The notes under the pieces were generated by a model. The model saw nothing but the letters and a program-made list of their open reading frames with translations. It searched no databases and was not told where the DNA came from. The translations under genes were made by a program, and so were the position numbers. A stretch of 64,000 nt of DNA from Olivibacter sitiensis DSM 17696 (GTDB taxonomy: Bacteria > Bacteroidota > Bacteroidia > Sphingobacteriales > Sphingobacteriaceae): positions 1 to 64,000 of the forward strand of contig NZ_ATZA01000024.1 in NCBI RefSeq assembly GCF_000427965.1. Reading direction: 5' to 3'. This document shows positions 5,968 to 42,656 of the stretch, in pieces. How positions within the stretch are numbered: the first letter of the stretch is position 1; every line of letters begins with the position of its first letter.

Positions 5968-7008
5968 ATGAAATCACTAGTATTTAATGGCGATCACGAC
6001 ATTGCCTTGGAAGAGAGACCAATACCAAAACTTCTAAAACCAACAGATGCCATCGTTAAGGTCTTGAAAACAACCATTTGCGGAACAGATTTAGGAATTT
6101 ACAAGGGCAAGAACCCCGAGGTAGCCAAGGGCCGTATCTTGGGACACGAAGGAATAGGAATCATCGAGGAAGTGGGTGAAAGTGTGACACAGTACAAAAA
6201 AGGCGATAAAGTATTGATTTCATGTGTCACCTCTTGTGGCTCGTGCGAGTATTGCAAAAAACAGCTATATGCACATTGCAAGGACGGGGGCTGGATTTTG
6301 GGATATATGATAGACGGCGTACAGGCCGAATACGTTCGCATACCCCATGCAGATAACAGCCTTTTCAAGATTCCCAACACCATAGACGATGAAGTAGCGG
6401 TATTGTTGAGCGATATATTGCCCACTGGGCATGAGATAGGTGTGCAATATGGCAACGTGAAGCCAGGTGATACCATCGCTATTGTAGGTGCTGGGCCTGT
6501 AGGCATGTCGGTGCTTTTGACTTCGCAATTCTATTCCCCTTCCATTATTATTGTTATCGACATGGATGAAAACAGGTTGGCCTTGGCAAAAGAACTGGGT
6601 GCCACTCATACCATCAATTCTGCCAATGAAAATGCCTTAGAAGCGGTAAAGAAAATTGCTGGTGAGGAAGGGGTTGATACGGCTATCGAAGCAGTCGGAA
6701 TTCCACCGACATGGAATATTTGCCAGCAAATTGTCAAACCTGGCGGCCACATCGCAAACGTTGGGGTACATGGTGTGAAGGTAGACTTTGAAATCCAGAA
6801 ATTATGGATTAAAAACCTGACGATTACGACAGGTTTGGTAAATACCAATACGACGCCTATGCTCATCAAAGCTGTTTCTGCCAACCGTTTTGACTTGAAA
6901 AGACTCATTACCCACCATTTTGATCTTTCTGAGATTGAAGAGGCATACCAAGTCTTCCTCAATGGGGCAAAAGAGAAAGCATTGAAAATAATCATAAACA
7001 ACTCTTAG
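5968..7008 (+). CDS. Zinc-dependent alcohol dehydrogenase (medium-chain family)
   Basis: A 346-residue MDR-superfamily alcohol dehydrogenase that oxidises an alcohol or reduces a ketone/aldehyde with NAD(P). Catalytic zinc ligands are visible as C38 and H60-E61 (in GHEGIG), with an acidic residue near 149 in LSDILPTGHE. The structural zinc lobe has four Cys (C90, C93, C96, C104). The Rossmann glycine motif GAGPVG is at 174-179 and is followed by an acidic strand end (IIVIDMDENR), which suggests a preference for NAD. The layout resembles bacterial secondary-alcohol or 2,3-butanediol-type enzymes. It lies opposite an AcoR-like activator and has its own terminator, so it is probably a single-gene unit induced by a small alcohol or ketone. 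The substrate is inferred only from family and context. Confidence 0.92.
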   Translation: MKSLVFNGDHDIALEERPIPKLLKPTDAIVKVLKTTICGTDLGIYKGKNPEVAKGRILGHEGIGIIEEVGESVTQYKKGDKVLISCVTSCGSCEYCKKQLYAHCKDGGWILGYMIDGVQAEYVRIPHADNSLFKIPNTIDDEVAVLLSDILPTGHEIGVQYGNVKPGDTIAIVGAGPVGMSVLLTSQFYSPSIIIVIDMDENRLALAKELGATHTINSANENALEAVKKIAGEEGVDTAIEAVGIPPTWNICQQIVKPGGHIANVGVHGVKVDFEIQKLWIKNLTITTGLVNTNTTPMLIKAVSANRFDLKRLITHHFDLSEIEEAYQVFLNGAKEKALKIIINNS

Positions 7009-7076
7009 AAAGTACGAGAAAAGCACCGCAAACAAATACTAGTCTATTTGTGAAGTGCAGCAGAACAACTATTTCC

Positions 7077-7116
7077 CCCGGTAGCCGGAGCAAACTGCTT
7101 CGGCTATCGGGTTTTT
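7077..7116 (+). terminator. Rho-independent terminator after the alcohol dehydrogenase gene
   Basis: A 16-base arm at 7077-7092 pairs with 7096-7111 (TGCTTCGGCTATCGGG) through two G-U pairs, with a 3-base loop, followed by TTTTT at 7112-7116. Confidence 0.85.
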
Positions 7117-7148
7117 AGCGGGTTATGAAAAACATTGCATTCATCCCG

Positions 7149-8591
7149 TTATAGGTGTACTTCTATACCAAACACATCTTTCAATGCCGTTCTAGCCGCA
7201 TAAAAGCCGCTCATGCCGTGCACACCACCCCCTGGCGGCGTGGAGGCCGAGCAGAGATAGACTCCTTTTGCCGATGTACGGTAGGGAGAAAAGCGCAATA
7301 CGGGTCTATTGAACAATTGTGCGAGATTGACCACACCACCATTAATATCGCCACCTATATAATTGGGATTGTAATGCTGCATTTCTTCCGTATTGAAGGT
7401 ATGCTTGGCCAAAATGGTATCCCTAAAACCCGGGGCAAACCGCTCGACCTGCGCTTCTATAGCTTCGGTCATATCTCTGGTAGAACCATTGGGCACATGG
7501 CAATAGGCCCAGCCCGTATGCTTCCCTGCGGGTGCCCTGCTTTCGTCAAACAGGCTCTGCTGAGCCACGAGCACAAAGGGCTTGTCGGGATGTTGGCCTT
7601 TCCATACCTGAGACTCTGAATGAGCCACCTCTTCAAAGGTATTGCCCAAGTGTACCGTCCCTGCCTTGCGGCATGCTTCCGAGCGGAAAGGAATGGGGCT
7701 ATCCAATGCCCAGTCGATCTTGAAAACGCCCATACCGTATTTATAGTCCTTCAATTGCCAACGATAGAAGCTAGAAAGTTCGTCGCCACAAATGGCCAGT
7801 AACTGCCTGGGCGTTACGTCCAGCAACACCGTGCGCGCATCGGGTAGGTCGCTCAAAGAGCTTACGGGACTATTGAGTTGTATCTCCCCTCCCAACGATT
7901 CGAAGTAAAAAGCCAAAGCATTGGCGATACTTTGCGAACCACCAATGGGTATAGGCCAGCCACCGATATGCCCGGCTGTGGAAAGTACCAGTGCAATGGC
8001 CGCCGATGTCTGGGCAGACAAAGGAATCATACTATGGGCTACGATACCCGCCCAGAGCCCACGGGCCTCCTTGGTCTTGAAACGGGCGGCGATCTGCTTG
8101 CCCGATTGCAAGGCCTTCCATCCAAAACCGGCCATGGCAAAAGGATGACGTGGCAGGGAAACCAAAGGCCCCAATACGTCCCTCTCTATTTGCGGCCAAT
8201 GGCGTACAAGTGGGGCAAAAAGCTTTTTATAAGCACCTTCGTCCGCGCCAAATCCTTTAGCAGTTTCATCTAGCGACCGTAAAAGTGCCGCCGCATCATC
8301 TCCCGAATCAAAAGGGTGCGCCGCCAGTACAGTTGGCTGCACGTACTTTAGCCCATGTTGTTCCAGCGGAAGCGATCGCAAAAAGGGTGATGCTGCCCCC
8401 ATGGGGTGGATAGCGGAACATACATCGTGGCGGAAACCCGGGAGCGTCAGCTCTTGGGTACGCATACCACCACCAACGGTGGCTTTCGCTTCGAGCAAAA
8501 GCACCGAAAGCCCCTCACGCTGCAAAGTAATGGCTGCAGCCAAACCATTGGGCCCAGCCCCCACTACCACCGCATCGTATCTTTTGGACAT
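7149..8591 (-). CDS. FAD-dependent oxidoreductase, phytoene desaturase-like
   Basis: A 480-residue flavoprotein of the phytoene-desaturase/amine-oxidase superfamily. The N-terminus has the dinucleotide-binding fold VVVGAGPNGLAAA, the acidic strand end (LLLEAKATVGGGMRT) and the second GD-type motif. The C-terminus has the typical FAD-contact block (YLCSASTPPGGGVHGMSG). Length and both motifs fit the CrtI/PYROXD2-type group. No phytoene synthase or other carotenoid gene lies in the window, so a carotenoid role is not supported. Many Bacteroidota carry such stand-alone relatives of unknown substrate. It lies 42 bases downstream of the secreted protein gene at 8634 on the same strand. Confidence 0.85.
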   Translation of the reverse strand: MSKRYDAVVVGAGPNGLAAAITLQREGLSVLLLEAKATVGGGMRTQELTLPGFRHDVCSAIHPMGAASPFLRSLPLEQHGLKYVQPTVLAAHPFDSGDDAAALLRSLDETAKGFGADEGAYKKLFAPLVRHWPQIERDVLGPLVSLPRHPFAMAGFGWKALQSGKQIAARFKTKEARGLWAGIVAHSMIPLSAQTSAAIALVLSTAGHIGGWPIPIGGSQSIANALAFYFESLGGEIQLNSPVSSLSDLPDARTVLLDVTPRQLLAICGDELSSFYRWQLKDYKYGMGVFKIDWALDSPIPFRSEACRKAGTVHLGNTFEEVAHSESQVWKGQHPDKPFVLVAQQSLFDESRAPAGKHTGWAYCHVPNGSTRDMTEAIEAQVERFAPGFRDTILAKHTFNTEEMQHYNPNYIGGDINGGVVNLAQLFNRPVLRFSPYRTSAKGVYLCSASTPPGGGVHGMSGFYAARTALKDVFGIEVHL

Positions 8592-30091: not shown

Positions 30092-33000
30092 TCAAAAGTT
30101 AAGTGTCAATTTGCCGCTGAAGATCCGATAAGTGGGATATTCAAAGAAATCCATATTGCCTTCGGGCGTAACGCCCGTAAAGTCTGTCCAGGTATATAGG
30201 TTGCGTGCTACAAAGGCTATTCTGCCACTCTTTACGGCATTCTTGAACAAGCCTATCCGGGGCAGGTTGTAGGCCACCGAAAGCTCTCGCAGTGAAAGGT
30301 AGCTGCTCTTGTGCAGCCAATAATCGGTTACCTGTTGGGCATTGAAAACACCGGTGGTAAAGGCCAAGGGTAAACCCAACTGGGCCGTTTCATCGGAGAA
30401 AGGCGAGCGGTACTGATAGGTAAGATACTGCTGGGTCATGTTGTACTTCAGCCCCCCCTGCTGCCAATCCAACAGACCATATATGCTAAAGGATTTCCAG
30501 CGGAAGGTATTGGAGAGGCCTAAAATAAAGTCTGGTTGCGCATCGCCTATGACCTTGGAATTGCCCGTGGCGGCATTTTGGTATAGCAGTGGCACCTCTG
30601 CGGCCGTTCCCAGTTGACTTTTAAGCACGACGAAACCCACCGAGTTCATGGTAAAATCATCGGGACGGAGATCTCCTCCTGCTGCATTGGTCACCAGCCC
30701 ATCGGCATTCACTTCCAATTGATCCAAGCTGGTGAGCACGCTGTAGCCGTAATAGGCAAATGGGCTTAGCCCCATGGCCTTTCGGAAATTGCTGCTGGTA
30801 AACTCGGGCACATTGCCCAGTGAAGTGATCTCACTGCGCACACGGCTAAAGGTGATGCCCACGTTCCATGAGAAGGCCGTACGCTGGATGGCGGCCCCAT
30901 TGGCCTCGAGTTCCCACGCATGGGATTTCACCGCACCTAGGTTGTCGTATATCTGTGCCGATCCGGTGGTGGGCGAAAAAGCGGGCACCAGTATGAAGTC
31001 GTTCTTGCTATCGGAAGCGGCGTAGTTGGCCTGTACGTTGATGCGATTGAACACCACGGCGTCTATACCCAGTTCTATTTCGGAGGTCACGGCCCGCTTT
31101 AGATCGGTATTGGCCCGCTGTGTGTAGCTTACGCCACCGGTACTGTTCAGCTCCACACGGCTTTCCTTGGCATTGAAAGGAGGCAAGCTGCCCGCCTGTC
31201 CATAGGCTGCACGCAGCTTAAGCTCATTGACAAAGCCGAGGTCCACATCCTGCGTGAGCCTATAGGCAAGGGATGCCCTGGGAAAAAAGGCCGTGGCCAC
31301 ATCCTGCCCAAAGCGCGAACTCTGATCCAACCGGCCAAGCACGTCTAGGAAGACCTTTTCTTTCCAACCGGCCTTCACGTTCAGGAAATAGCCATAGTTG
31401 ACCGTCCGGCTCCAGTCCGAACCAATGCTTCGCGTATCTGCAGCAGCAGCGGAGAGGTTTTTTACCGGTGCACTCAGGTTATAGCCAGAGGCCCTCAGTT
31501 CCGTATAGCGATAATCTTCGTAAACGGATTTGAGCGAGACACCCAGATCCAACACGTTGAAACGGCGCTGATAGTTGATCTGTGCCTGCGCGTTCTTGGT
31601 GGCCACCTTGGAGGACAGCAATCCATAGTAGCCGTTGTTACGGCTAATGTTGGCCGTCAAGGTCTGGAAGCCAATCGGATAATAGTCCTCACTGTTAAAA
31701 TACTCGTTCTGTATGGAGCCATATACCTCGGCATTCAGGTACTGGCTGAAGGCATAGCGCAATTTAGCACCACCCAGCACATTGTCATTATTGTTGGCAT
31801 ACTCGCGGTAGCTCAACTGGTAGAAGGGATTATCTACGTTGAATTTCTGTATCTCAAAGCCATCTGGGCTAAAGGCGTACTTGCCATTTTCATCGCGCTG
31901 GCGCAGGTATATGAATGGCTCATAGAGCGTGGTGGCATAGAGCAGCGAACCCGCACCGCTATTGGTCGTTGCCGACGAAGGCGTTACCGTATTGAAGTAT
32001 TGCAGGGTGAGGTCTACGCTCAACTTCTGATTGGGCCTGTAGCCAAAGTTAAACATAGCCGTCTTTCTCGTATCGGCATCTACTACGGAAGCTACGCCTC
32101 CCTTGTGCTGGTTTTGGAAAGAGGCATACAGGTTGTACTTGTCGCCCGCTGCCGTGGCAGAGAAGGTATTGCTAAAGAAAGCGTTGTTGTTCAACATGTT
32201 GCCCACATTGTCATAGTAATGGGTATAGGGGTGCAGGTTGAGCGAGAAGCCGTTGTCCTGGTAATCCAAGAGGCGGTTGGTACCGTTCAGCACAAAAGAG
32301 CCATCGGCATTTACCTGAAAATGGTGGTATTCCGATACGGGTGGCGTTCGCTGCACGTTGGATATACCCACCTCGTTATCCAGCGTCAAACGCAACCCCG
32401 AGCTGCCCTTTCCGGTTTTGGTGATAACCTGTATGGTGCCTCCTTCCCCACGGGTTCCGTACAGCGCGGAAGCGGCCGCACCCTTTACCACCTCTATGGA
32501 CTCAATGTCCTGCGGATTGAGGTCGGAAAGGGAAAGGTTGGTTACAAATCCGTCCACCACGATGAGGGGAGCCACGTTGCCCGATACGGATTTTGCACCG
32601 CGCAAGGTGACAGTGGCACTTCCATTGCCCGTGCTTTGCACGATGCGGATACCGGCTACCTTTCCCCTCAAGCTTTGCGAGGCATCTACACCGGGCACAG
32701 TTGCCAGCTGTTCGGTGTTCACTTTTGTCAGCGCAAATGCCAGCTGCTTGCGATCCGTGCCCTGTGCCACACCCGTCACCACCACCTCATCGAGGGTGGT
32801 ATTGTCCGGCACCAAGATGACGCGCAGGCCTTCCTTTGCGGGCAAGTTGGTGGTGACATAGCCCAGCGAGGAGAAAGTAAGCTCGGTGCCTGGGGCTATG
32901 CTCACCGAGAACCGGCCATTTGCGTCGGTCGTTGCCAAAAGGGAACCCCTTTCCTTCCACGTCACATTGACTCCGGGGACGGGTGCATTTGTTTCGCTAT

Positions 33001-33094
33001 CTATGACTTCGCAGTTAACGGCTATCTGTTGTGCTCCGGCACTGGCGGGCAGCCACAACAAGAAGATGATCATCAACTTCAAGAATCTATTCAT
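30092..33094 (-). CDS. SusC/RagA-family TonB-linked outer-membrane transporter (second pair)
   Basis: 1000 residues: a signal peptide ending at SAGAQQ, CarboxypepD_reg domain (EVIDSETNAPVPGVNV), TonB box LDEVVVTG, and a plug with VTLRGAKSVSGNVAPLIVVDG and VVKGAAASALYGTRGEGGTIQVITK. The barrel ends in an aromatic-rich strand (FSGKLTLNF). It shares an operator-like sequence with the encapsulin/methionine control region (33424-33452), so its expression may follow sulfur status, and an organic sulfur compound is a possible ligand (inference). Confidence 0.95.
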   Translation of the reverse strand: MNRFLKLMIIFLLWLPASAGAQQIAVNCEVIDSETNAPVPGVNVTWKERGSLLATTDANGRFSVSIAPGTELTFSSLGYVTTNLPAKEGLRVILVPDNTTLDEVVVTGVAQGTDRKQLAFALTKVNTEQLATVPGVDASQSLRGKVAGIRIVQSTGNGSATVTLRGAKSVSGNVAPLIVVDGFVTNLSLSDLNPQDIESIEVVKGAAASALYGTRGEGGTIQVITKTGKGSSGLRLTLDNEVGISNVQRTPPVSEYHHFQVNADGSFVLNGTNRLLDYQDNGFSLNLHPYTHYYDNVGNMLNNNAFFSNTFSATAAGDKYNLYASFQNQHKGGVASVVDADTRKTAMFNFGYRPNQKLSVDLTLQYFNTVTPSSATTNSGAGSLLYATTLYEPFIYLRQRDENGKYAFSPDGFEIQKFNVDNPFYQLSYREYANNNDNVLGGAKLRYAFSQYLNAEVYGSIQNEYFNSEDYYPIGFQTLTANISRNNGYYGLLSSKVATKNAQAQINYQRRFNVLDLGVSLKSVYEDYRYTELRASGYNLSAPVKNLSAAAADTRSIGSDWSRTVNYGYFLNVKAGWKEKVFLDVLGRLDQSSRFGQDVATAFFPRASLAYRLTQDVDLGFVNELKLRAAYGQAGSLPPFNAKESRVELNSTGGVSYTQRANTDLKRAVTSEIELGIDAVVFNRINVQANYAASDSKNDFILVPAFSPTTGSAQIYDNLGAVKSHAWELEANGAAIQRTAFSWNVGITFSRVRSEITSLGNVPEFTSSNFRKAMGLSPFAYYGYSVLTSLDQLEVNADGLVTNAAGGDLRPDDFTMNSVGFVVLKSQLGTAAEVPLLYQNAATGNSKVIGDAQPDFILGLSNTFRWKSFSIYGLLDWQQGGLKYNMTQQYLTYQYRSPFSDETAQLGLPLAFTTGVFNAQQVTDYWLHKSSYLSLRELSVAYNLPRIGLFKNAVKSGRIAFVARNLYTWTDFTGVTPEGNMDFFEYPTYRIFSGKLTLNF

Positions 33095-33412: not shown

Positions 33413-33443
33413 CAAACATACGTATAAAATCTATTAAATCAAT
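33413..33443 (-). promoter_or_regulatory. Bacteroidota-type promoter upstream of the second SusC gene
   Basis: On the minus strand ATTG (33443-33440) and TATGTTTG (33420-33413) are separated by 19 bases; the -7 box is exact and identical to that of the first SusC, and the -33 box matches at three of four bases. The leader would be about 310 bases. Confidence 0.5.
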
Positions 33444-33452
33444 AGGCTTTAT
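33424..33452. promoter_or_regulatory. Operator-like inverted repeat shared with the encapsulin/met region
   Basis: ATAAAATCTA (33424-33433) - 9 bases - TAGGCTTTAT (33443-33452). The same arrangement with the same 9-base spacing occurs at 39870-39898 (ATAAAGTCTA-N9-TAGACTTTAT). Eighteen of the twenty half-site positions agree. It covers the -33 region, 3 bases from the -7 box. Confidence 0.5.
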
Positions 33453-33694: not shown

Positions 33695-36127
33695 ATGATG
33701 GAAACCGTAAATAAAAGAACATTCGACCTTCCATTGGAAAATGTGGATAGCGAGCATTGTGCCATGATAGTGGACAAGGGATTGGCACAGGTGCAGGGCA
33801 TTAGCTCGCATAAGGTGGAGCTCAACAATAACAGGGCGCTCATCCAAGTGGACCAGAATACACAAGCCACTGTCGCAAACGCCGTAAATGCCATTCGCGA
33901 CTTGGGTTATGGCGTCACTACCGTAAAAAAAACATTTCCCGTAATGGATATGTCGTGCGCGTCCTGTGCCAGCAGTGTGGAGTCTGTCCTCCAACACCAT
34001 GACGGCGTGATCCATGTAGCGGTCAATTTTGCCAACAACAGTGCACAGGTGGAATACATACCTACGATTACCGATCCAGGCGAGCTCAAAAAGGCGGTAC
34101 AGCAAGCGGGCTATGACCTGATGATCGATGAGCATGAAGACGCACATGAATCCCTTGAAACCGCCAAGGCAAACAAACAGAAAACACTGGCTAGAAAAGT
34201 TTATGGAGCGCTACTCCTTTCGGTACCTCTGGTCATCATCGGTATGTTTTTCATGGACATGCCCTATGCCAATTACATCATGTGGGCTCTTTCCACGCCT
34301 ATGCTGTTTTACTTTGGACAGCAGTTTTTTGTAGGCGCCTGGAAACAGGCCAAGCACCGCTCTGCCAACATGGACACCTTGGTAGCCATCAGCACGGGTA
34401 CGGCCTATGTGTTCAGCGTGTTCAACACCTTATTGCCCGGTTTTTGGCATAGCCGTGGTGTCCATCCCCATGTCTATTTTGAAGCGGCAGGGGTGGTCAT
34501 CGCTTTCTTGCTATTGGGCAAACTGTTGGAAGAAAAAGCAAAAGGCAACACCTCCAGTGCCATCAAAAAACTGATGGGACTACAACCCAAGACGGTCACC
34601 GTCATCCACCACGGGGGGCATCAAATGGAAATGCCCATTACTAAGGTACAGGTGGGAGATACACTACTGGTGAAGCCTGGGGAACGGATTGCAGTAGACG
34701 GAACAGTTGCCGAAGGCAGCAGCTATGTAGACGAGAGCATGATCAGCGGAGAACCAGTACCCGTAGCTAAGCAAAAAGGTGATCCGGTATTTGCGGGTAC
34801 CATCAACCAAAAAGGTGGCTTTCAGTTTACGGCCAATAAGGTAGGTGGCGACACCGTGCTGGCCCAGATCATCAAGATGGTGCAAGATGCACAGGGAAGC
34901 AAAGCGCCCGTACAGAAATTGGTGGATAAGATCGCTGCCATTTTTGTACCCGTGGTGATGCTGATTGCTATCCTTAGTTTCTTTATCTGGCTATTGGCGG
35001 GTGGAAGCAATGGTTTCAGCCAAGGACTCATTGCCTTTGTCACAGTGCTGATCATTGCCTGTCCCTGCGCCCTGGGGCTTGCAACGCCCACGGCTGTCAT
35101 GGTAGGGGTAGGCAAAGGCGCAGAGAAGGGAATCCTTATCAAGGATGCCGAAAGCCTGGAACTTGCAAAGCGTATCACGGCCATCATACTCGACAAAACA
35201 GGAACCATCACGGAAGGCAAGCCTTCGGTAACCGACGTGCGATGGCTTGCCCAAACGGATCAATTGCTGCAAAATATCCTCTACAGCATTGAAAAGTCGT
35301 CAGAACATCCCCTAGCTGATGCCGTGGCCGACTATTTTAAGGGAAAAGCCGAGTATCTAAGCAACGTAACGATAGAAAACATAAGCGGCCAAGGCATCCA
35401 GGGCACATACGAAGGCGAAACCTACACCATCGGCAATCAACAATTGATGCGTGAGAAAGGCATAGCCATTGGCGAAGATGCAAGCGCATGGATGAATCAA
35501 AAATACACAGAAGCGCAAACCGTTATTTTCTATGGCAAGGGACAAACTTTATTGGCTATGTTGGCTATAGCCGATAAGATAAAGCCTAGCTCTGCCAGTG
35601 CCATCCACCAACTGCACAAAGAGGGCATCAAAGTGTATATGCTCACTGGCGACAACGAACATACTGCAAGGGCCGTAGCGGAGCAATTGCATATAGACGA
35701 CTACAAGGCCAACGTGCTGCCTGCCGAAAAAGCTGCTTTTGCCAAAACACTGCAACAACAGGGAAATGTCGTAGCCATGGTGGGCGACGGCATCAACGAC
35801 AGCAATGCACTGGCACAGGCCGATGTAAGTATCGCCATGGGTAAAGGAAGCGACATTGCGATGGACGTGGCCAAGATGACCATTATCTCATCCGATTTGT
35901 CCAAAATCCCGGAAGCCATCCATCTTTCAGACCAAACGGTGAAAGCCATAAAGCAAAACCTCTTTTGGGCATTCATTTACAATATGATTGGCATTCCACT
36001 TGCTGCCGGAATATTGTATCCCATCAATGGCTTCTTGCTGGATCCCATGTGGGCGGGTGCCGCAATGGCGTTCAGTTCGGTGAGTGTGGTAGCCAATAGC
36101 TTAAGGCTGAAATGGAAGAAAATATAG
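33695..36127 (+). CDS. copA: Copper-translocating P-type ATPase (CopA)
   Basis: 810 residues. Two N-terminal heavy-metal domains: the first (about residues 8-75) is degenerate, with only one Cys in DSEHCAMIV, while the second (about 80-145) has the normal M-S-C-A-S-C site. The membrane part has the metal-binding CPC motif (IACPCALGLATPT). The soluble part has the phosphorylation loop DKTGTITEG, the SSEHPLADAV HP motif, the TGES-equivalent ISGEP and the hinge MVGDGINDSNALAQADVSIAMG. It exports Cu(I) from the cytoplasm. The chaperone gene follows 73 bases downstream, confirming copper rather than zinc/cadmium. Confidence 0.94.
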   Translation: MMETVNKRTFDLPLENVDSEHCAMIVDKGLAQVQGISSHKVELNNNRALIQVDQNTQATVANAVNAIRDLGYGVTTVKKTFPVMDMSCASCASSVESVLQHHDGVIHVAVNFANNSAQVEYIPTITDPGELKKAVQQAGYDLMIDEHEDAHESLETAKANKQKTLARKVYGALLLSVPLVIIGMFFMDMPYANYIMWALSTPMLFYFGQQFFVGAWKQAKHRSANMDTLVAISTGTAYVFSVFNTLLPGFWHSRGVHPHVYFEAAGVVIAFLLLGKLLEEKAKGNTSSAIKKLMGLQPKTVTVIHHGGHQMEMPITKVQVGDTLLVKPGERIAVDGTVAEGSSYVDESMISGEPVPVAKQKGDPVFAGTINQKGGFQFTANKVGGDTVLAQIIKMVQDAQGSKAPVQKLVDKIAAIFVPVVMLIAILSFFIWLLAGGSNGFSQGLIAFVTVLIIACPCALGLATPTAVMVGVGKGAEKGILIKDAESLELAKRITAIILDKTGTITEGKPSVTDVRWLAQTDQLLQNILYSIEKSSEHPLADAVADYFKGKAEYLSNVTIENISGQGIQGTYEGETYTIGNQQLMREKGIAIGEDASAWMNQKYTEAQTVIFYGKGQTLLAMLAIADKIKPSSASAIHQLHKEGIKVYMLTGDNEHTARAVAEQLHIDDYKANVLPAEKAAFAKTLQQQGNVVAMVGDGINDSNALAQADVSIAMGKGSDIAMDVAKMTIISSDLSKIPEAIHLSDQTVKAIKQNLFWAFIYNMIGIPLAAGILYPINGFLLDPMWAGAAMAFSSVSVVANSLRLKWKKI

Positions 36128-36200: not shown

Positions 36201-36413
36201 ATGGAAACCTTAAAATTCAAGACCAATATCAATTGTGGAGGCTGTGTGGCCAAAGTGACCCCAGCGTTGAACAGCGATGAGAAGATAACAGAATGGCACG
36301 TGGATACGGACAATAAGGACAAAATACTTACCGTATCCGGAAAAACAGTAGACAAGGAGAAGGTGATGGAATTGATTGCCAAAACAGGCTTCAAGTCCAC
36401 CCCTATTGATTAA
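36201..36413 (+). CDS. Copper chaperone, heavy-metal-associated domain (CopZ-like)
   Basis: A 70-residue single HMA domain with the metal site N-C-G-G-C (residues 11-15 region, NINCGGCVAKV) and the beta-alpha-beta-beta-alpha-beta pattern ending in AKTGFKSTPID. It should carry Cu(I) to CopA or buffer it. The Met that usually precedes the CxxC (MxCxxC) is replaced by Ile/Asn. The stop codon overlaps the stop of the convergent cysteine desulfurase gene by 3 bases. Confidence 0.9.
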   Translation: METLKFKTNINCGGCVAKVTPALNSDEKITEWHVDTDNKDKILTVSGKTVDKEKVMELIAKTGFKSTPID

Positions 36414-38194
36414 TGCTTCAAGCTTTTTATTACGTCGATAAATTGGTCTATTTCAGCGCAAGTGTTGTAAAACGCGAAAGAAGGCCGCACCGTCGACTCG
36501 AGCCCATAGCGTCGCAGTATGGGTTGTGCACAGTGATGTCCGGCACGTACTGCGATGCCCTCCTTGCTGAGCGCTTCACCCACCTGTGTCGTTGTATATC
36601 CATTTAGTACGAAAGATAGGACGCTGGTTTTCTCCTTGGCAGTGCCTATCAATCGTATACCGGGTATAGCCTTCAACTTGCTGGTGGCATAGTGCAACAG
36701 AAAATGCTCATATTGGTAAATATTGTCTATCCCCAATTTGTTCACGTAATCAATGGCCGCCCCCAAGGCTACCGCATCAGCGATATTTCCGGTACCTGCC
36801 TCAAAGCGGCTAGGTGCCTCGTGGAATTCAGTATGTTCAAAGGTGACATCCTTGATCATGTTTCCTCCGCCTTGGTAAGGCTGCGTTGCATTGAGCAGAC
36901 CCTCCTTACCATATAGTACACCTATTCCCGTGGGACCAAATATCTTATGTCCCGAAAAAACAAACCAATCTGCGCCCAACTGTTGCACATCCGTACGGAT
37001 ATGCGATACGGACTGCGCCCCATCGGCCAGTACCTTTGCTCCTGCCGCATGGGCGATATCTACAATTTGCTTGGCTGGAGTGATGGTACCCAAGGCATTG
37101 GAAACCAACGTAAAGGACACTAACTTGGTCCTAGGGCTTATTAGCTTGGCATATTCATCTATCAATACTTGCCCATCATCATCCACGGGTATTACCTTAA
37201 TGTTCAAGTTCTTTTTCTTGGCCAACAATTGCCATGGAACAATATTGGCATGATGCTCCAAATGACTAAGGATAATCTCATCCCCTTCATGGAGGTATTG
37301 CTCGCCCCAACTACTCGCCACCAGGTTGATGGCCTCCGTCGTTCCTCTAACAAAGACGACCTCGTTGATTGAGCGTGCATTTAGGAAATGCTGCACTTTG
37401 ATGCGCGCCTCTTCGTAAGCATCCGTTGCTCTCGCTGCCAAGGTATGGGCAGCTCGATGGATATTGGAGTTCTCGTGCTGATAGAAATAAGCCAACCTGT
37501 CCAATACCGATTGAGGCTTTTGCGTGGTAGCCGCGTTATCAAACCAGATGAGCGGCCGACCATTTACCCGTTCGTTCAGAATGGGAAAATCGTTCCTTAC
37601 CAAGTTGACATTGAAAGTTGGGCTTGCACCATAACTGGACCACTGTGTTTCGCTTCCCGAAGCAAAAGGCGAAATCGGGGTGAAATAATAGGCACTTTCG
37701 TCCAATACACTAGAGGGAGGATTGGAAAACTGCGCTGACGGACCGCTAAGCTGTATATGGCGCAATGCATCGAGCAATTGCTGCTCGAACGACGATTTCC
37801 CCCCTTCAAAGGGCAGGGCATTTATGCCTAGATCGTGATCTTCAACACGCGAGCCCGATACCGCATCGCCAGCAGACGCCCCACCGCTGCCTGCCGTAGA
37901 GTGAGGTACCTCGCCATAGCCCTTGGCATTGGGATCGGGCAGACTGGTCTGCGGATCGTACAAATCGATGGCATTGCCCTGATGTATGGCCGATGGAGAG
38001 ATACCACCATTATCATGAAGCGATACGGGGGCATGATACCCTCCTATGTAAGGATGGACACGATCAGAAGTACCAGGCGGACTCGCTGGATCTATACCAC
38101 CTGGAGATGTCTGGAAGAGACTATTGGCCAATCTCTCCAATTCGCTCTCTTCGGGCAGTTCATAGTTGTGTTTATTGAAATTGTTGTCGCTCAT
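36410..38194 (-). CDS. Cysteine desulfurase with encapsulin cargo extension (family 2A encapsulin cargo)
   Basis: 594 residues. From about residue 200 it is a SufS-type PLP enzyme: FDNAATTQKPQSV, HxEHHANIVPW, PLP lysine K417 in FSGHKIFGPTGIG and the active-site C555 in RAGHHCAQP. It removes sulfur from L-cysteine as persulfide/sulfane sulfur. The first ~195 residues are low-complexity, rich in G, S, P and N, with short hydrophobic patches such as LERLANSLFQ and FEQQLLDALRHIQL. This matches the disordered N-terminal domain that loads the desulfurase into SrpI-type shells. The shell gene is directly upstream, one base away. Ordinary SufS proteins are about 410 residues. Confidence 0.93.
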   Translation of the reverse strand: MSDNNFNKHNYELPEESELERLANSLFQTSPGGIDPASPPGTSDRVHPYIGGYHAPVSLHDNGGISPSAIHQGNAIDLYDPQTSLPDPNAKGYGEVPHSTAGSGGASAGDAVSGSRVEDHDLGINALPFEGGKSSFEQQLLDALRHIQLSGPSAQFSNPPSSVLDESAYYFTPISPFASGSETQWSSYGASPTFNVNLVRNDFPILNERVNGRPLIWFDNAATTQKPQSVLDRLAYFYQHENSNIHRAAHTLAARATDAYEEARIKVQHFLNARSINEVVFVRGTTEAINLVASSWGEQYLHEGDEIILSHLEHHANIVPWQLLAKKKNLNIKVIPVDDDGQVLIDEYAKLISPRTKLVSFTLVSNALGTITPAKQIVDIAHAAGAKVLADGAQSVSHIRTDVQQLGADWFVFSGHKIFGPTGIGVLYGKEGLLNATQPYQGGGNMIKDVTFEHTEFHEAPSRFEAGTGNIADAVALGAAIDYVNKLGIDNIYQYEHFLLHYATSKLKAIPGIRLIGTAKEKTSVLSFVLNGYTTTQVGEALSKEGIAVRAGHHCAQPILRRYGLESTVRPSFAFYNTCAEIDQFIDVIKSLKH

Positions 38195-38195
38195 G

Positions 38196-39122
38196 TTAGT
38201 ACTTGTACTCGTGATACTTGTTTATTTCTACATCGTCCAGTACCGCAATGGCATCTTCTACCAAAACGGCAAGAGAACAGTACAGGGAAACCAAATAGGA
38301 AGCAATGGCCTTTTCGTTAATCCCCATAAAGCGAACCGAAAGCCCTGGCGATTGCTCGCCCTGCAAGTTGGGCTGGTAAAGCCCTACAACTCCCTGCCTG
38401 CTTTCTCCGGTACGTATCAAGATGATCTTGGTTTTGTTGTTCTCAATGGGCACCTTGTCCGAAGGAATCAACGGTATGCCACGCCAGGTGATAAACTGCG
38501 AGCCAAACAAGGATACCGTGGGTGGCGGCACTCCGCGTCTGGTACATTCTCTTCCAAAGGCGGCTATGGCCAAAGGATGCAAAAGAAAAAATCCCGGTTC
38601 CTTCCACACCTTGGTAATCAATTCATCCAAATCATCTGGCGTGGGCGCACCTGTCCGTGTCTTTATCCGTTGGGATTTTACAACACTATGAAGCAATCCG
38701 TATTCCCTATTATTTATCAACTCACTCTCCTGACGCTCCTTAATCGCTTCGATGGTCAGCCGCAATTGCTCACTGATCTGGTTATAGGGTTTGCTATATA
38801 GGTCGGACACACGGGTATGTACGTCCAATACCGTATTCACTGCACTCAACAAATATTCCCTAGGTTGCTCCACATAGTCTACAAAGGTATTCGGCAGTGC
38901 ACGCTCATCACGGTTGGAGCAATCTACTTCTACCGTGTTGCCTTCCTTCACTCTGTTGACCCGATATATACCAGCCTCTACCGGTACCCAGCTCAATAGA
39001 TGTGGCAACCAGCGCGGCGTGATAAAGGAGGTTTGAGGTACGGTACGCGTGGCTATGGCCAGCGGTCTTGCCGCAATATCACTCAGTGCGGTCTGTTGTT
39101 GATTCTTTACTTGTCCTGCCAT
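38196..39122 (-). CDS. Family 2A encapsulin shell protein (SrpI-like)
   Basis: A 308-residue HK97-fold shell protein. Recognisable SrpI-family blocks are TPRWLPHLLSWVPVEAGIYRVN, YVEQPREYLLSAVNTVLDVHTRVSDLY, SPDELDELI-like PTPDDLDELITKVWKEPGFF, HPLAIAAFGRECTRRGVPPP and the C-terminal KAIASYLVSLYCSLAVLVEDAIAVLDDVEI. Family 2A shells form hollow protein capsules; the Synechococcus SrpI capsule encloses a cysteine desulfurase and is induced by sulfur starvation. It lacks the cyclic-nucleotide-binding insertion of family 2B shells. It sits between the cargo gene and the DUF4395 gene. Confidence 0.93.
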   Translation of the reverse strand: MAGQVKNQQQTALSDIAARPLAIATRTVPQTSFITPRWLPHLLSWVPVEAGIYRVNRVKEGNTVEVDCSNRDERALPNTFVDYVEQPREYLLSAVNTVLDVHTRVSDLYSKPYNQISEQLRLTIEAIKERQESELINNREYGLLHSVVKSQRIKTRTGAPTPDDLDELITKVWKEPGFFLLHPLAIAAFGRECTRRGVPPPTVSLFGSQFITWRGIPLIPSDKVPIENNKTKIILIRTGESRQGVVGLYQPNLQGEQSPGLSVRFMGINEKAIASYLVSLYCSLAVLVEDAIAVLDDVEINKYHEYKY

Positions 39123-39189: not shown

Positions 39190-39666
39190 TCATATGGGCT
39201 TACGAATCAGGCCAAACTTTACCAACAGACTGAAAACATGGCATCCGGCACAGAAGCCAAACACAGATTCCAGTAATGCGAATAAAGCCAATATGGATGC
39301 CAATACGACGGCACTTACGGTGCTGTATCCCGCCAAGCTCAATATAGCTATTGAAAAAAGAAGCCCAATGGTAGCTGCAAACCGCTTCGGGGCTCGGTCG
39401 GTCCCTCTAAATCCAATCTTAAAACCACTTACGATCAGTCCCGCAATACGCCAAAAAGGACTGTAACTACCCTTGTTCGCAACACGCAGGGCAAAATCGA
39501 CTACCAATAGCACAGGGATTCCCCAAAAGCCCGTCAACAGGTAGAGCGAGGCGCTAATAAAAACAAGGCCAGCTGTTACCCTAGCCTGAAAGTCATTGAT
39601 CAATATAAAATCGGTAGGGCAATTCAGCCCATCGAAAGATGTAATTTGTTGTTTTACCCGTGCCAT
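39190..39666 (-). CDS. DUF4395 membrane protein with CxxC motif
   Basis: 158 residues with four hydrophobic segments. An N-terminal GLNCP (C16) and a C-terminal C139-A-G-C142 in FGFCAGCHVF are the conserved cysteines of the DUF4395 family, which occurs near thioredoxins, rhodaneses and sulfur-handling genes. In this operon it is the first gene, 67 bases before the encapsulin shell. It could pass thiols, persulfide sulfur or a sulfur compound across the inner membrane to or from the encapsulated desulfurase; this is inference. The function of the family is not established. Confidence 0.85.
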   Translation of the reverse strand: MARVKQQITSFDGLNCPTDFILINDFQARVTAGLVFISASLYLLTGFWGIPVLLVVDFALRVANKGSYSPFWRIAGLIVSGFKIGFRGTDRAPKRFAATIGLLFSIAILSLAGYSTVSAVVLASILALFALLESVFGFCAGCHVFSLLVKFGLIRKPI

Positions 39667-39860
39667 TAGCTATGATTTATTTGGTGATGACTCCTACATT
39701 ATTTAATTAAAGTGTCTTTGTAAAGAACGCTTGTTTTATATCAAATGAATTATTTGGTCTTCCTATACTCGTTCTGTTTGCCATAAAAATAGTTTTCCGT
39801 AATGGTATCCGGTTTGCAGCTTTTCGATCAAAACAAAAAATTACCCAACGGCGTTCAGAG

Positions 39861-39868
39861 CAAACATA
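39861..39868 (-). promoter_or_regulatory. -7 box of the encapsulin operon
   Basis: TATGTTTG on the minus strand, identical to the -7 boxes of both SusC genes. No TTTG-like -33 box is found at the expected distance; that position falls inside the palindrome, which suggests an activator-dependent promoter. Confidence 0.5.
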
Positions 39869-39902
39869 CATAAAGTCTATAAAAAAAGTAGACTTTATGT
39901 AT
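39866..39902. promoter_or_regulatory. 14-bp-arm palindrome between divergent promoters (candidate operator)
   Basis: ATACATAAAGTCTA (39866-39879) and its perfect reverse complement (39889-39902) flank a 9-base A-rich spacer. It touches the encapsulin -7 box and lies 8 bases from the metN -7 box, so one protein bound here could control both. The core ATAAAGTCTA-N9-TAGACTTTAT (39870-39898) recurs upstream of the second SusC. A transcription terminator is less likely because no gene ends nearby. Confidence 0.6.
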
Positions 39903-39910
39903 AATTTATT

Positions 39911-39918
39911 TATTTTTG
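39911..39918 (+). promoter_or_regulatory. -7 box of the metNI / tRNA-like transcript
   Basis: TATTTTTG matches TAnnTTTG. Transcription would start near 39925, about 19 bases before the tRNA-like element and 200 bases before metN. There is no TTTG box 19 bases upstream; the palindrome is there instead. Confidence 0.5.
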
Positions 39919-39943
39919 TCGAAACAAGATTGGTTTTGGCTGC

Positions 39944-40014
39944 AGTCGCGTGACCGAGTGGCTAGGTGGAGGGAGGCATACCCTTTTACGGTAGTTCGAA
40001 TCTGCCCGCGACTT
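39944..40014 (+). tRNA. tRNA-Cys-like cloverleaf (anticodon GCA, G at position 33)
   Basis: The 71 bases fold as a tRNA. The acceptor stem is AGTCGCG/CGCGACT (7 of 7 pairs, 39944-39950 with 40007-40013). U8, a 3-bp D stem (ACC/GGT) with A14, G15, G18-G19 and A21 follow. The anticodon stem is GAGGG/CCCTT with loop AGGCATA (39974-39980), giving anticodon GCA. A 4-base variable loop ends in C48, which can pair with G15. The T arm is GGTAG-TTCGAAT-CTGCC. The discriminator base is U (40014). Anticodon GCA and U73 are the main identity elements of cysteine tRNA. Against a normal decoding tRNA are G instead of the near-universal U at position 33 and the absence of an encoded CCA. It could be a genuine but specialised tRNA, a tRNA mimic in the metN leader, or a decayed copy. 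Confidence 0.55.
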
Positions 40015-40128
40015 CTACTCGTAGCACCTCACCTGCCTGCAAAAAGAAAATGAATAGACTAGGGGTAATCACAAAAAAGTATAAAAGTAGCCCTAACACC
40101 TATTCGGATCACTAAGCAACACAACAAC

Positions 40129-41157
40129 ATGATAACGATAAAAAACGTTTCCAAAACTTTCTATCAAAAAGACAAGGCATTCAAGGCGCTTGACAATATA
40201 AATCTAACGGTAGCAGAAGCAGATATTGTCGGTGTCATTGGAAGTTCAGGAGCGGGAAAAAGTACTTTGATACGTTGTGTTAACCTATTGGAAAAGCCCG
40301 AGGAAGGACAAATCATTGTCAACGGGACAGAGCTGACCAGGCTGACCGAGAAACAGCTGGCGCAGGAACGCAAAAAAATCGGGATGATCTTTCAGCATTT
40401 TAACCTGCTTTCTTCAAGGGCAGTATTCAACAATGTGGCATTGCCCTTGGAACTAGATGGTGTACCGAAAGCCGAAATTCGCCGAAAAGTGACCGAGCTA
40501 TTGGAGGTAGTGGGACTTCGCGAGAAAGCAAATGATTATCCCAAAAACCTATCTGGAGGACAAAAGCAACGCGTCGCCATTGCCCGGGCCTTGGCGAACG
40601 ATCCTTATGTACTACTTTGCGATGAGGCAACAAGTGCCCTGGATCCCGCCACCACGCAGTCCATCCTGCAATTATTGAAAGACATCAACAAAAGATTGCA
40701 CCTCACCATCCTACTCATCACCCATGAAATGGAAGTAGTAAAATCTATCTGCAACCATGTAGCGGTGATAGATAGGGGCAAGCTAGTGGCAAAAGGTACC
40801 ATTCGCCAATTGCTCGCCAAAGACGACAAACATATCATTCACCAATTTATTCAATCGGACGCCATGACCCTACCAAAAGAGCTGAGCGAGAACCTGCAGA
40901 AAGATTATCAGGAAGGCCTATGCCCGATAATCGAAATCCAACTCAATGGAAATATGAGGTTTGATGTCCTGATAGCCAAAATATCGGGCGAATACCAAGT
41001 ACCGTTTAAGGTGCTAAGGGCAGATATTGAATACTTGGGCGACACAAACTTCGGCAAACTATTGCTACACCTAATGGGCAGCACTGAGGAAAATGCAAGA
41101 GCTATTTATTATTTTAATCAACATCAGCTAAAAAACACTATAAAAGGATATGCTTGA
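40129..41157 (+). CDS. metN: MetN, methionine ABC transporter ATPase
   Basis: 342 residues. The ABC domain has Walker A GSSGAGKST, Q-loop IFQHFNLLSSRAVFNNVALPLE (a MetN-typical stretch), signature LSGGQKQR, Walker B VLLCDEAT and the switch His in LITHEME. A C-terminal NIL domain (about residues 265-340, CPIIEIQLNGN, YLGDTNFGKLLLHLMG) is the ACT-like part that binds methionine and inhibits transport when cytoplasmic methionine is high. It powers uptake of methionine through MetI. The end overlaps metI by 8 bases. Confidence 0.95.
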   Translation: MITIKNVSKTFYQKDKAFKALDNINLTVAEADIVGVIGSSGAGKSTLIRCVNLLEKPEEGQIIVNGTELTRLTEKQLAQERKKIGMIFQHFNLLSSRAVFNNVALPLELDGVPKAEIRRKVTELLEVVGLREKANDYPKNLSGGQKQRVAIARALANDPYVLLCDEATSALDPATTQSILQLLKDINKRLHLTILLITHEMEVVKSICNHVAVIDRGKLVAKGTIRQLLAKDDKHIIHQFIQSDAMTLPKELSENLQKDYQEGLCPIIEIQLNGNMRFDVLIAKISGEYQVPFKVLRADIEYLGDTNFGKLLLHLMGSTEENARAIYYFNQHQLKNTIKGYA

Positions 41158-41803
41158 CAACACCACACTGCTGATTTTAAAAGGACTCTGGGAAACCATT
41201 TTTATGACTTTTGTTTCTGGCATTTTTGGCTTTGCTTTGGGACTCCCTACGGGTATTGCACTATTCTTGACCCGAAAGGGGCAGTTGCTGGAGAGACCGC
41301 TATACCACCGCACACTATCTATACTGGTCAACGCTTTTCGCTCCATTCCTTTCATCATCTTGATCGTATGGATGATCCCTTTCACGAGGGCATTGGTGGG
41401 GACTTCCATAGGCATCAGCGCAGCTTTGGTGCCCCTTAGTATCGGTGCCGCCCCGTTTATAGCAAGGCTGGTGGAAAACAGCCTACTTGAAGTACCAAGC
41501 GGATTGATCGAAACAGCTCGCTCCATGGGAGCCCGGCCGTTTCAAGTAATCACCAAAGTACTGCTGCCAGAAGCCTTGCCTTCCCTCATAAACAATGCGA
41601 CGATTACCCTGATTACGCTGGTGGGCTATTCGGCCATGGGAGGCGCCGTAGGCGCTGGAGGCCTCGGGCAAATTGGCTATCAGTATGGATACATCGGCTA
41701 TGACGCCCTTATCATGAATATGGTACTCATCCTCTTGGTTGGGCTGGTTTTTGCCATTCAGTTCATAGGAGATCGCTTGTCGAGAAAATTCGATCATAGG
41801 TAA
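41150..41803 (+). CDS. metI: MetI, methionine ABC transporter permease
   Basis: A 217-residue permease with five hydrophobic segments. MetI signatures are IALFLTRKGQLLERPLYH, VNAFRSIPFIILIVWMIPFTR, the coupling loop EVPSGLIETARSMGARPFQVI and VGYSAMGGAVGAGGLGQIGYQYGY. It is translationally coupled to metN and ends 16 bases before the stop of metQ, which is encoded on the other strand. Confidence 0.95.
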   Translation: MLDNTTLLILKGLWETIFMTFVSGIFGFALGLPTGIALFLTRKGQLLERPLYHRTLSILVNAFRSIPFIILIVWMIPFTRALVGTSIGISAALVPLSIGAAPFIARLVENSLLEVPSGLIETARSMGARPFQVITKVLLPEALPSLINNATITLITLVGYSAMGGAVGAGGLGQIGYQYGYIGYDALIMNMVLILLVGLVFAIQFIGDRLSRKFDHR

Positions 41804-41819: not shown

Positions 41820-42656
41820 TTACCAACCTTTAACCGCTCCCCCCTTGAATACCTTTTCCGCTGCTTTCTCAACCGCTTCAGACTGGTATGCCTTAACGAA
41901 GTTCCGCACTTTTTCGGCGTCTTTGTTATCCTCTCTAGCCACTATAACATTCACGTAGGGAGATTCCTTATCTTCCTTTAGGATACCATATTGCTCGGGG
42001 TCTATCCCGGCCTGCGCGGCAAAGTTGTTGTTGATAACAGCAATGGTTACTTCCTTGTCGTCCAATACCCGTGGCAACTGTGGTGCTTCAATTTCGAGGA
42101 TTTTCAATTGCTTGGGATTTTGCGCGATGTCGGTGACCTTGGGCAGCAAGCCCACGCCATCCCTCAATTGCAGCAGTCCATGTTTCTGCAGGAGCAGTAA
42201 TGATCGCCCACCGTTGGTCGGATCATTGGGAATAACGATGGTGCTCCCGTTCTTCAGTTCCGATATATTCCCAATCTTTTTGGAATAGGCAACTATCGGG
42301 TAAACGAACGTATTGCCCACAACGGCCAATTTATAGCCTCGCTGCTTGGCCTGCTCCTCCAAATAAGGCACGTGCTGAAAGGCATTTATATCAATGTCGC
42401 CTTGGTTGAGTGCTTCATTTGGCACAACGTAATCGTTGAAGGTAACCAGCTCCACGTCGAGATCATATTTCGCTTTGGCCTCTTTTTGGGCAGCCTCTGC
42501 AATTTCTCTTTCCGGACCAGAGGTAATGCCTACTTTCAGGTATTTTGGATTGTCGTTCTTGGATCGTCCACCGCAAGCATGGAGCAAAAACAGGCCAATA
42601 AACGCCGCGAATAGGAACAGTCTTTTCTTGCCACCATGGCATATCATCAGGTTCAT
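41820..42656 (-). CDS. metQ: MetQ, methionine-binding lipoprotein (convergent to metNI)
   Basis: 278 residues of the NlpA/MetQ family with lipidation at C28 (LFLLHACGG). Family blocks: KVGITSGPEREIAEAAQKEAK, the D-I-D-I-N-A-F-Q-H-V-P-Y-L motif, IVIPNDPTNGGRSLLLLQ and AVINNNFAAQAGIDP. It delivers methionine to MetNI. MetQ normally follows metNI in the same direction; here it faces them tail to tail, so it has its own promoter, upstream near 42660-42700. A start at 42647 (MICHGGKK) is also possible. Confidence 0.94.
   Translation of the reverse strand: MNLMICHGGKKRLFLFAAFIGLFLLHACGGRSKNDNPKYLKVGITSGPEREIAEAAQKEAKAKYDLDVELVTFNDYVVPNEALNQGDIDINAFQHVPYLEEQAKQRGYKLAVVGNTFVYPIVAYSKKIGNISELKNGSTIVIPNDPTNGGRSLLLLQKHGLLQLRDGVGLLPKVTDIAQNPKQLKILEIEAPQLPRVLDDKEVTIAVINNNFAAQAGIDPEQYGILKEDKESPYVNVIVAREDNKDAEKVRNFVKAYQSEAVEKAAEKVFKGGAVKGW

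Follow-up and report, generated by a model that had tools for sequence, protein, structure and literature searches.

The window analyzed here, a 64,000-nt stretch of the Olivibacter sitiensis DSM 17696 genome, contains a 72-nt tRNA-Cys-like element on the plus strand (39944–40015). Its boundaries follow from ARAGORN, relatives in other genomes and covariance models, and add C74 to the segment (39944–40014) of a preliminary description of this DNA. ARAGORN named the element tRNA-Cys(gca) and drew it with a fully paired 7-bp acceptor stem (AGUCGCG/CGCGACU, with A1-U72), a 3-bp D stem (ACC/GGU) and a 5-bp anticodon stem with one G.U pair. The anticodon loop (AGGCATA, 39974–39980), defined by the sequence, the drawing and loop statistics, reads A32 G33 G34 C35 A36 U37 A38, with G33 at 39975 and the GCA anticodon at 39976–39978. 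A UUAC variable loop, a T arm with TTCGAAT and U73 at 40014 complete the structure. Both the call and the drawing bear out the cysteine-type cloverleaf with GCA, U73, G33 and a perfect acceptor that had been described earlier. The element has the cloverleaf, anticodon and U73 of a tRNA-Cys gene but lacks the U33 and standard anticodon loop of a decoding tRNA. Given its G33 and changed loop, this copy is probably a poor decoder; it could also be a decaying gene. A check of the Infernal tRNA score, as proposed in the preliminary description, went against the element: the Rfam tRNA model (RF00005) gave no match to it at the gathering cut-off (29 bits) or even at E ≤ 10 (39700–40200), and it was not among the 45 tRNAs above cut-off in its own genome. 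The stability of the lone sequence equaled that of its shuffles (z = −0.02), so single-sequence folding proves nothing.

The element lies 114 nt 5′ of metN (ATG at 40129). This gene (40129–41157, +) encodes an ABC transporter ATPase with a NIL domain (PF00005 and PF09383) and is followed by the permease gene metI (41150–41803, +; PF00528) and by the convergent metQ (41820–42656, −; PF03180), which encodes an NlpA lipoprotein. On the other side, and divergent from the element and metN, are genes for a DUF4395 protein (39190–39666, −; PF14340), a family 2A, SrpI-like encapsulin shell (38196–39122, −; PF19307) and a cysteine desulfurase-type protein with a long N-terminal region (36410–38194, −; PF00266). 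The Pfam assignments agree with the encapsulated cysteine desulfurase previously noted beside the element. A DUF4395 ORF likewise adjoins an element, directly 3′ of it, at another locus (L223). The desulfurase-type protein is the probable encapsulin cargo by analogy with a cyanobacterial encapsulated desulfurase system that is induced by sulfur starvation and resembles the window neighbor (PMC8049743). Judged from the sequence, the encapsulated desulfurase is a neighbor of the element across the palindrome described below and at most a possible partner.

Between the DUF4395 gene and the element we identified a 27-bp palindrome, TAAAGTCTA-N9-TAGACTTTA (39871–39897), as a candidate sulfur-regulon operator (1 match, versus 0 in 100 shuffles). 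It fits the pattern TAAARTCTA-N9-TAGAYTTTA at 18 of 18 positions and sits at −73 of the element. Just past it, and 33 nt 5′ of the element, is a −7 promoter box, TATTTTTG (39911–39918, +); we take the −7 consensus of Bacteroidota to be TAnnTTTG. The location of the element between the palindrome with its −7 box and metNI implies that it should be co-made with these methionine/sulfur uptake genes. A second palindrome copy with one mismatch (33425–33451) lies upstream of a SusC-like gene (30092–33094, −), between it and a copper-type P-ATPase gene at 33695. No SAM riboswitch was found by Rfam in the window at the gathering cut-off. Nothing T-box-like was found either, at gathering in the window or at E ≤ 10 in 39700–40200, in line with the earlier remark that such regulation is not known in Bacteroidota.

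The element is conserved within the genus. In a DNA search it aligned without its flanks at 93, 87, 85, 83 and 79% identity to five places in three of the four other genus genomes (best alignment, 93% identity, E = 1.9e-22), and the flanks were not conserved. Eleven element sequences from this search were used to build a covariance model (R1), which located the housekeeping tRNA-Cys (GGTCGGA...) at one syntenic place in all five genus genomes; in other genera this gene adjoins a SpoU-type methylase gene (Pfam of L246). Each genus genome also has one to four extra tRNA-Cys-like copies (R1 matches >65 bits). The window genome has two R1 matches >46 bits, C67:25965–26036 and the window element. 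On this count of housekeeping genes, another check proposed beforehand, the window element is, by its sequence, an extra copy rather than the housekeeping tRNA-Cys. In the proposed comparison of metN leaders, the element was absent at metN of the sister genome G003, where the palindrome alone lies 105 bp upstream. A dedicated second cysteinyl-tRNA synthetase (CysRS) was also considered and rejected, as each of the five genus genomes had a single PF01406 match.

We extended the search to 151 genomes of the taxonomic family, 144 of which had a match at E ≤ 1e-10 and 54 of which had two or more. Extra copies were taken from 49 multi-copy genomes outside the genus; locus L178 of G067 proved to be the housekeeping copy, and the set holds no extra copy from that genome. 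Six matches <36 bits resembled other tRNAs and were left out. The 109 aligned matches include the genus and encapsulin loci, and L210, at a contig end, was left out of the class counts. We sorted the remainder into beta elements (39; A1 or U1, mostly A1.G72), bulge elements (16; an extra base, mostly A, in the 3′ acceptor strand, ...CUCACGCC), gamma copies (12; C33), tandem copies (13; arrays of three to five, GATCG...), housekeeping genes (10) and other elements (18). Genomes with two or more matches were chosen; as many of them are closely related, the raw counts cannot be treated as independent. By its AGUCGCG-type acceptor, GCA and U73, the window copy belongs to the beta class, but its 1:72 is paired (A-U).

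The cloverleaf of the beta class is maintained by compensatory change. Among 35 beta elements, 93.0% of the cloverleaf cells are standard pairs and 13 of the 20 pairs have changed on both sides; in 500 shuffles none scored as high on four of five pairing measures, and one did on the fifth. Together with the conservation of the element apart from its flanks in the genus, these compensatory changes place the element beyond chance. The sole exception is pair 1:72, which is unpaired in 36 of 39 beta elements (32 of the 35 in the covariation set), a frequency that partly reflects how members were selected, because the class is partly defined by its first base. By comparison, G1-C72 is present in all 10 housekeeping genes fetched within the family and in 17 of 18 correctly read loci outside it (L278 and L282 left out); the exception, L296, is a second copy with U1.G72.

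Recognition by CysRS seems to be the conserved trait of the family, since GCA and U73 are kept while the loops vary. Bacterial cysteine identity elements include U73, G34 C35 A36 and G2-C71, according to PMC9976931. Among 91 distinct non-housekeeping elements, 87 retain GCA and 90 retain U73; among the 37 with altered loops, GCA is kept in 33 and U73 in 36. Position 33 is U in 70 of the 91 paralogs, C in 20 and G only in the window copy, whose loop also differs from that of its nearest relative at positions 32 and 38. The full decoding loop (CTGCAAA) is present in 54 of the 91, so the term non-decoding cannot be applied to the whole family. Thus, of the earlier proposal of a charged, non-decoding tRNA used as a cysteine donor or sensor, what stands is that the family retains the CysRS identity set and loosens the decoding features. 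Most sister elements in the 33 loci searched with Rfam pass the tRNA cut-off (34–63 bits); besides the window copy, the model misses elements of G002 (L010/L021), L226, L229 and L235.

Several members of the family depart from these patterns. The tandem arrays at L202:6040–6485 (−), L201:6045–6481 (−) and L204:5979–6237, all from one genus, hold five, five and three tRNA-Cys-like genes at ~90-nt spacing, with a GATCG... acceptor, CCGCAAG or CTGCAAG loops and no palindrome. The gamma copies of L136–L139 and L141–L143 (near 6919–7304) have C33, a mostly mismatched anticodon stem, their own −7 box at −20 to −23 and no common neighbor gene that we could see. Both gamma copies and tandem arrays were considered as sulfur-controlled and, having no palindrome, were left out of that claim. 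Two elements (L033:7671–7742 and L211:8030–8101, −) have a Cys-type cloverleaf, A1.G72 and U73 with a CAU anticodon (loop TTCATAA), and a palindrome (15 and 16 of 18) 69–88 bp upstream. In a class-wide scan of 395 genomes with strict filters (E ≤ 1e-13), the 348 genomes with a match outside the family comprised 14 with two copies and the rest with one; this multi-copy count is a lower bound because the scan lost known extra copies (one of three recovered in G024).

The retained anticodons and loops would also suit a functional tRNA-Cys isodecoder that reads Cys codons and belongs to the sulfur regulon, so that tRNA supply follows sulfur metabolism. The maintenance of the cloverleaf by compensatory changes and the scores of most sister elements above the Rfam cut-off are consistent with such a role. 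The reading is nevertheless unlikely in view of G33 in the window copy and C33 in 20 relatives, the open 1:72 pair of most beta elements and the bulged acceptor of another class, where all 10 housekeeping genes fetched have G1-C72. Furthermore, an additional decoding tRNA-Cys would bring no obvious benefit during sulfur shortage.

The palindrome recurs upstream of sulfur genes and of the elements themselves. At ≤1 mismatch, the five genus genomes (G000–G004) have 2, 3, 0, 2 and 6 copies, with 0 for a reversed-pattern control; the best site of G002, which has none at this threshold, matches 16 of 18 positions in L021. In addition to metN in G003, genus palindromes precede PhyH genes (G001 and G004) and sulfatase genes (one in G001 and two in G004, one of the latter diverging from a Cys/Met PLP gene, with an element between the two). 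They also precede an HxlR gene with a PstS-type operon (G003), a TonB-type gene and HTH genes. Another G004 palindrome is located 53 bp past the end of an Rrf2 gene and precedes a tetrapyrrole-methylase gene; siroheme synthesis is among the functions of this gene family. Rrf2 genes (PF02082) adjoin elements in L222 and L066 and the palindrome in G004 (L261). Judging solely from this gene neighborhood, the palindrome repressor is perhaps Rrf2/CymR-like.

Across 91 loci (1.17 Mb), 21 palindrome sites scored 17–18 of 18, versus none in five block shuffles, and 61 scored ≥15, versus 35; the consensus derives from loci that include the window and the genus, and other genera contributed little to it. 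A palindrome of ≥15/18 lies within 2 kb upstream of 22 of 39 beta, 7 of 16 bulge and 5 of 18 other elements, and of none of the housekeeping (0/10), gamma (0/12) or tandem (0/13) copies (34/73 versus 0/35; Fisher p = 7.5e-8). The remaining 17 beta elements had no palindrome at this score and distance. Where present, it is 43–124 bp 5′ of most leader-type elements or else before the gene whose 3′ end bears the element.

The promoters of the elements also differ from those of housekeeping genes, all 10 of which have TAnnTTTG at −22 to −26. An own −7 box at −45 to −12 was found for 5 of 39 beta, none of 16 bulge and 7 of 12 gamma elements (background, 2% per 41-nt stretch). Furthermore, 14 beta and 8 bulge elements are ≤25 nt past a stop codon, too close for a promoter of their own. 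Of the 33 loci searched with Rfam, 14 have a SAM-I riboswitch that is apparently cotranscribed with the element. In some (L218, L187, L181, L225, L193–L196 and L240) it precedes a desulfurase-, peroxiredoxin- or TlpA-type gene with an element at its 3′ end. In four others it lies 47–51 nt 5′ of the element with no ORF between (L220:5875–6106; L226:6032–6265, −; L229:5962–6268, −; L235:5737–6059), and the four linkers have a common AAGTGAT...T-run segment. L233 has the riboswitch 16 nt 3′ of the element.

The genes that end in elements point to sulfur and thiol metabolism. Twenty-five non-gamma elements (the 14 beta and 8 bulge elements above and 3 others) are ≤25 nt 3′ of the nearest same-strand stop codon, and the genes upstream encode TlpA/redoxin-type AhpC-TSA proteins (8), AhpC/TSA proteins with a 1-Cys peroxiredoxin domain (6), YeiH-type/PF03601 proteins (5), class-V aminotransferases of the cysteine desulfurase kind (3), PhyH proteins (2) and an S10 carboxypeptidase (1). 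Clustering and Pfam searches of representatives assigned 24 of the 25 to thiol, sulfur or PhyH genes; here we take PF03601 to be a sulfate exporter, the class-V proteins to be cysteine desulfurases and PhyH, from context, to be sulfur-linked. After dereplication, AhpC-TSA made up 5 of 19 adjacent gene families and at most 1 of 100 distal ones among the 25 families listed (p = 3e-4 if 1). The adjacent set covers 19 of 20 genes (a 1600-aa protein was left out), including the ORFs of L223 and L140, which start within the element and extend 3′ of it, and the distal set covers 100 of 110. Other elements are near Cys/Met-metabolism PLP, sulfatase with FGE-type, TauE, Rrf2 and metNI-type genes; for example, two Mucilaginibacter-type loci (L060 and L061) each have two elements before a metN-like gene. 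Several beta elements (e.g., L189, L228 and L232) lack a sulfur or thiol gene among their first neighbors, and neighbors of the SusD/PIG-L, glycoside hydrolase and peptidase types were also seen.

We also considered and rejected a link with encapsulin as such, since the shell (E ≤ 1e-20) was present in just 3 of 60 relatives searched, the window genome included. Model R1 found Cys-type elements in 6 of 80 named encapsulin loci (L033, L060, L061, L066, L092 and L103) and none in L026 and L027; eight 35–38-bit matches in Chitinophaga proved to be tRNA-Met. At L033 (Pedobacter caeni) the element is 259 nt 5′ of the encapsulin gene. The elements are therefore associated with sulfur genes and not with encapsulin as such. 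The concentration of the palindrome and the SAM riboswitches on sulfur and thiol genes makes sulfur control of the elements likely.

The varied positions also bear on whether the fold acts in cis, as an mRNA element that CysRS, RNase P or the CCA-adding enzyme binds or cuts to set mRNA stability or translation. The close spacing to stop codons and the position of the window element before metN would be compatible with this role. Pairing of the riboswitch–element linker with the 5′ half of the element exceeded shuffles in L229 (8 of 1000 as good) and L235 (1 of 1000) but not in L220 (470 of 1000) or L226 (80 of 1000). The 3′ flank of the window element also paired with it better than most shuffles (15 of 500 as good); its 5′ flank paired at shuffle level (331 of 500). 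Against a cis role, the geometry is not fixed: some elements precede genes, others follow them, and four stand directly behind SAM riboswitches without an intervening ORF. The metN-leader position emphasized in the preliminary description holds for the window, where the element follows the palindrome and −7 box, but is one of several placements. Nor did the genus DNA search detect a conserved second sequence adjoining the window element. We consider a cis-acting element quite improbable, ranking it below the decoding isodecoder and above a decaying duplicate. That a decaying tRNA-Cys gene lies in the sulfur cluster by accident would account for G33, the changed loop, the missing Rfam match and the shuffle-level fold, and is very improbable given the intact 7-bp acceptor, T arm, GCA and U73, the conservation of the element without its flanks, the compensatory changes in relatives and their recurrence on sulfur/thiol genes and behind the palindrome.

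Our preferred interpretation, held with moderate confidence, is that the window element is an extra, diverged tRNA-Cys gene under sulfur control that serves as a sink or reporter rather than as an ordinary decoder. Under sulfur shortage, a repressor (perhaps Rrf2/CymR-like) would leave the palindrome and, once it is freed, a transcript joining the tRNA-like element and metNI would be made. RNase P and RNase Z would release the RNA, to which CCA would be added, and the single CysRS would recognize it via GCA and U73 and presumably charge it. G33 and the altered loop would make it a poor substrate for the ribosome; loaded with cysteine or uncharged, it would act as a sink or reporter and may restrain cysteine use during sulfur shortage. 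In relatives, the same kind of RNA would be produced from the 3′ end of cysteine desulfurase-, peroxiredoxin- or YeiH-type transcripts or directly behind SAM riboswitches. More tentatively, and somewhat short of an even chance, the elements may represent a new class of regulatory tRNAs: paralogs induced by sulfur starvation, switched by the palindrome or a SAM riboswitch, chargeable by CysRS and barred from normal elongation, whose role would be to tune cysteine consumption or to signal the state of cysteinyl-tRNA to the sulfur regulon. In such a class, riboswitch control would be a feature of the relatives, and changes in the acceptor or anticodon loop would impose the elongation bar.

Parts of this arrangement have precedents. 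The element shares its cloverleaf, D- and T-arm sequences, GCA, U73 and G2-C71 with the housekeeping bacterial tRNA-Cys(GCA) but differs from it in its second locus, A1-U72 (A.G in most beta relatives), G33, the sulfur-type palindrome and a promoter apparently shared with metNI. The staphylococcal cell-wall tRNA-Gly species are non-proteinogenic extra isoacceptors that keep synthetase identity and have lost ribosome features; the element resembles them in the identity kept and differs by its apparent control through sulfur elements. T-box leaders bind tRNA without being tRNAs, and the E. coli thrS leader is a tRNA mimic. Like these, the element is a tRNA-related structure in an amino-acid gene leader; unlike them, it forms a complete cloverleaf bearing CysRS identity, and its relatives are often at 3′ ends. 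Rli55 and EutX exemplify riboswitch-controlled non-coding RNAs. L220, L226, L229 and L235 similarly have a riboswitch followed by an RNA gene and not an ORF, except that here a SAM-I riboswitch precedes a tRNA-Cys-like gene, and the window has no riboswitch. The CymR/Rrf2 cysteine regulons of Firmicutes (e.g., PMC2869319) likewise have a palindrome on sulfur genes, and here Rrf2 genes are found beside elements or the palindrome. The differences are the phylum, the inclusion of tRNA-like genes and a palindrome-binding protein that is only a candidate. Specialized extra tRNAs, RNAs driven by riboswitches and cysteine regulons of the Rrf2 type are thus each known; for sulfur-controlled tRNA-Cys paralogs, we found no report in the open-access papers searched, as judged by titles and the openings of abstracts.

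tRNA genes are usually regarded as constitutive housekeeping genes. The repeated siting of tRNA-Cys-like genes beside sulfur and thiol genes points to a hitherto undescribed connection between tRNA and the supply of sulfur, and some of these tRNA-like genes may escape annotation because the generic Rfam model misses them. A tRNA-Cys paralog family appears to be part of a sulfur regulon, with few promoters of its own in its two altered classes. If its members are charged but do not decode, they would directly link amino-acid supply to a tRNA working outside translation; if they decode, they would be tRNA genes under riboswitch control. Both outcomes can be tested in ordinary soil Bacteroidota.
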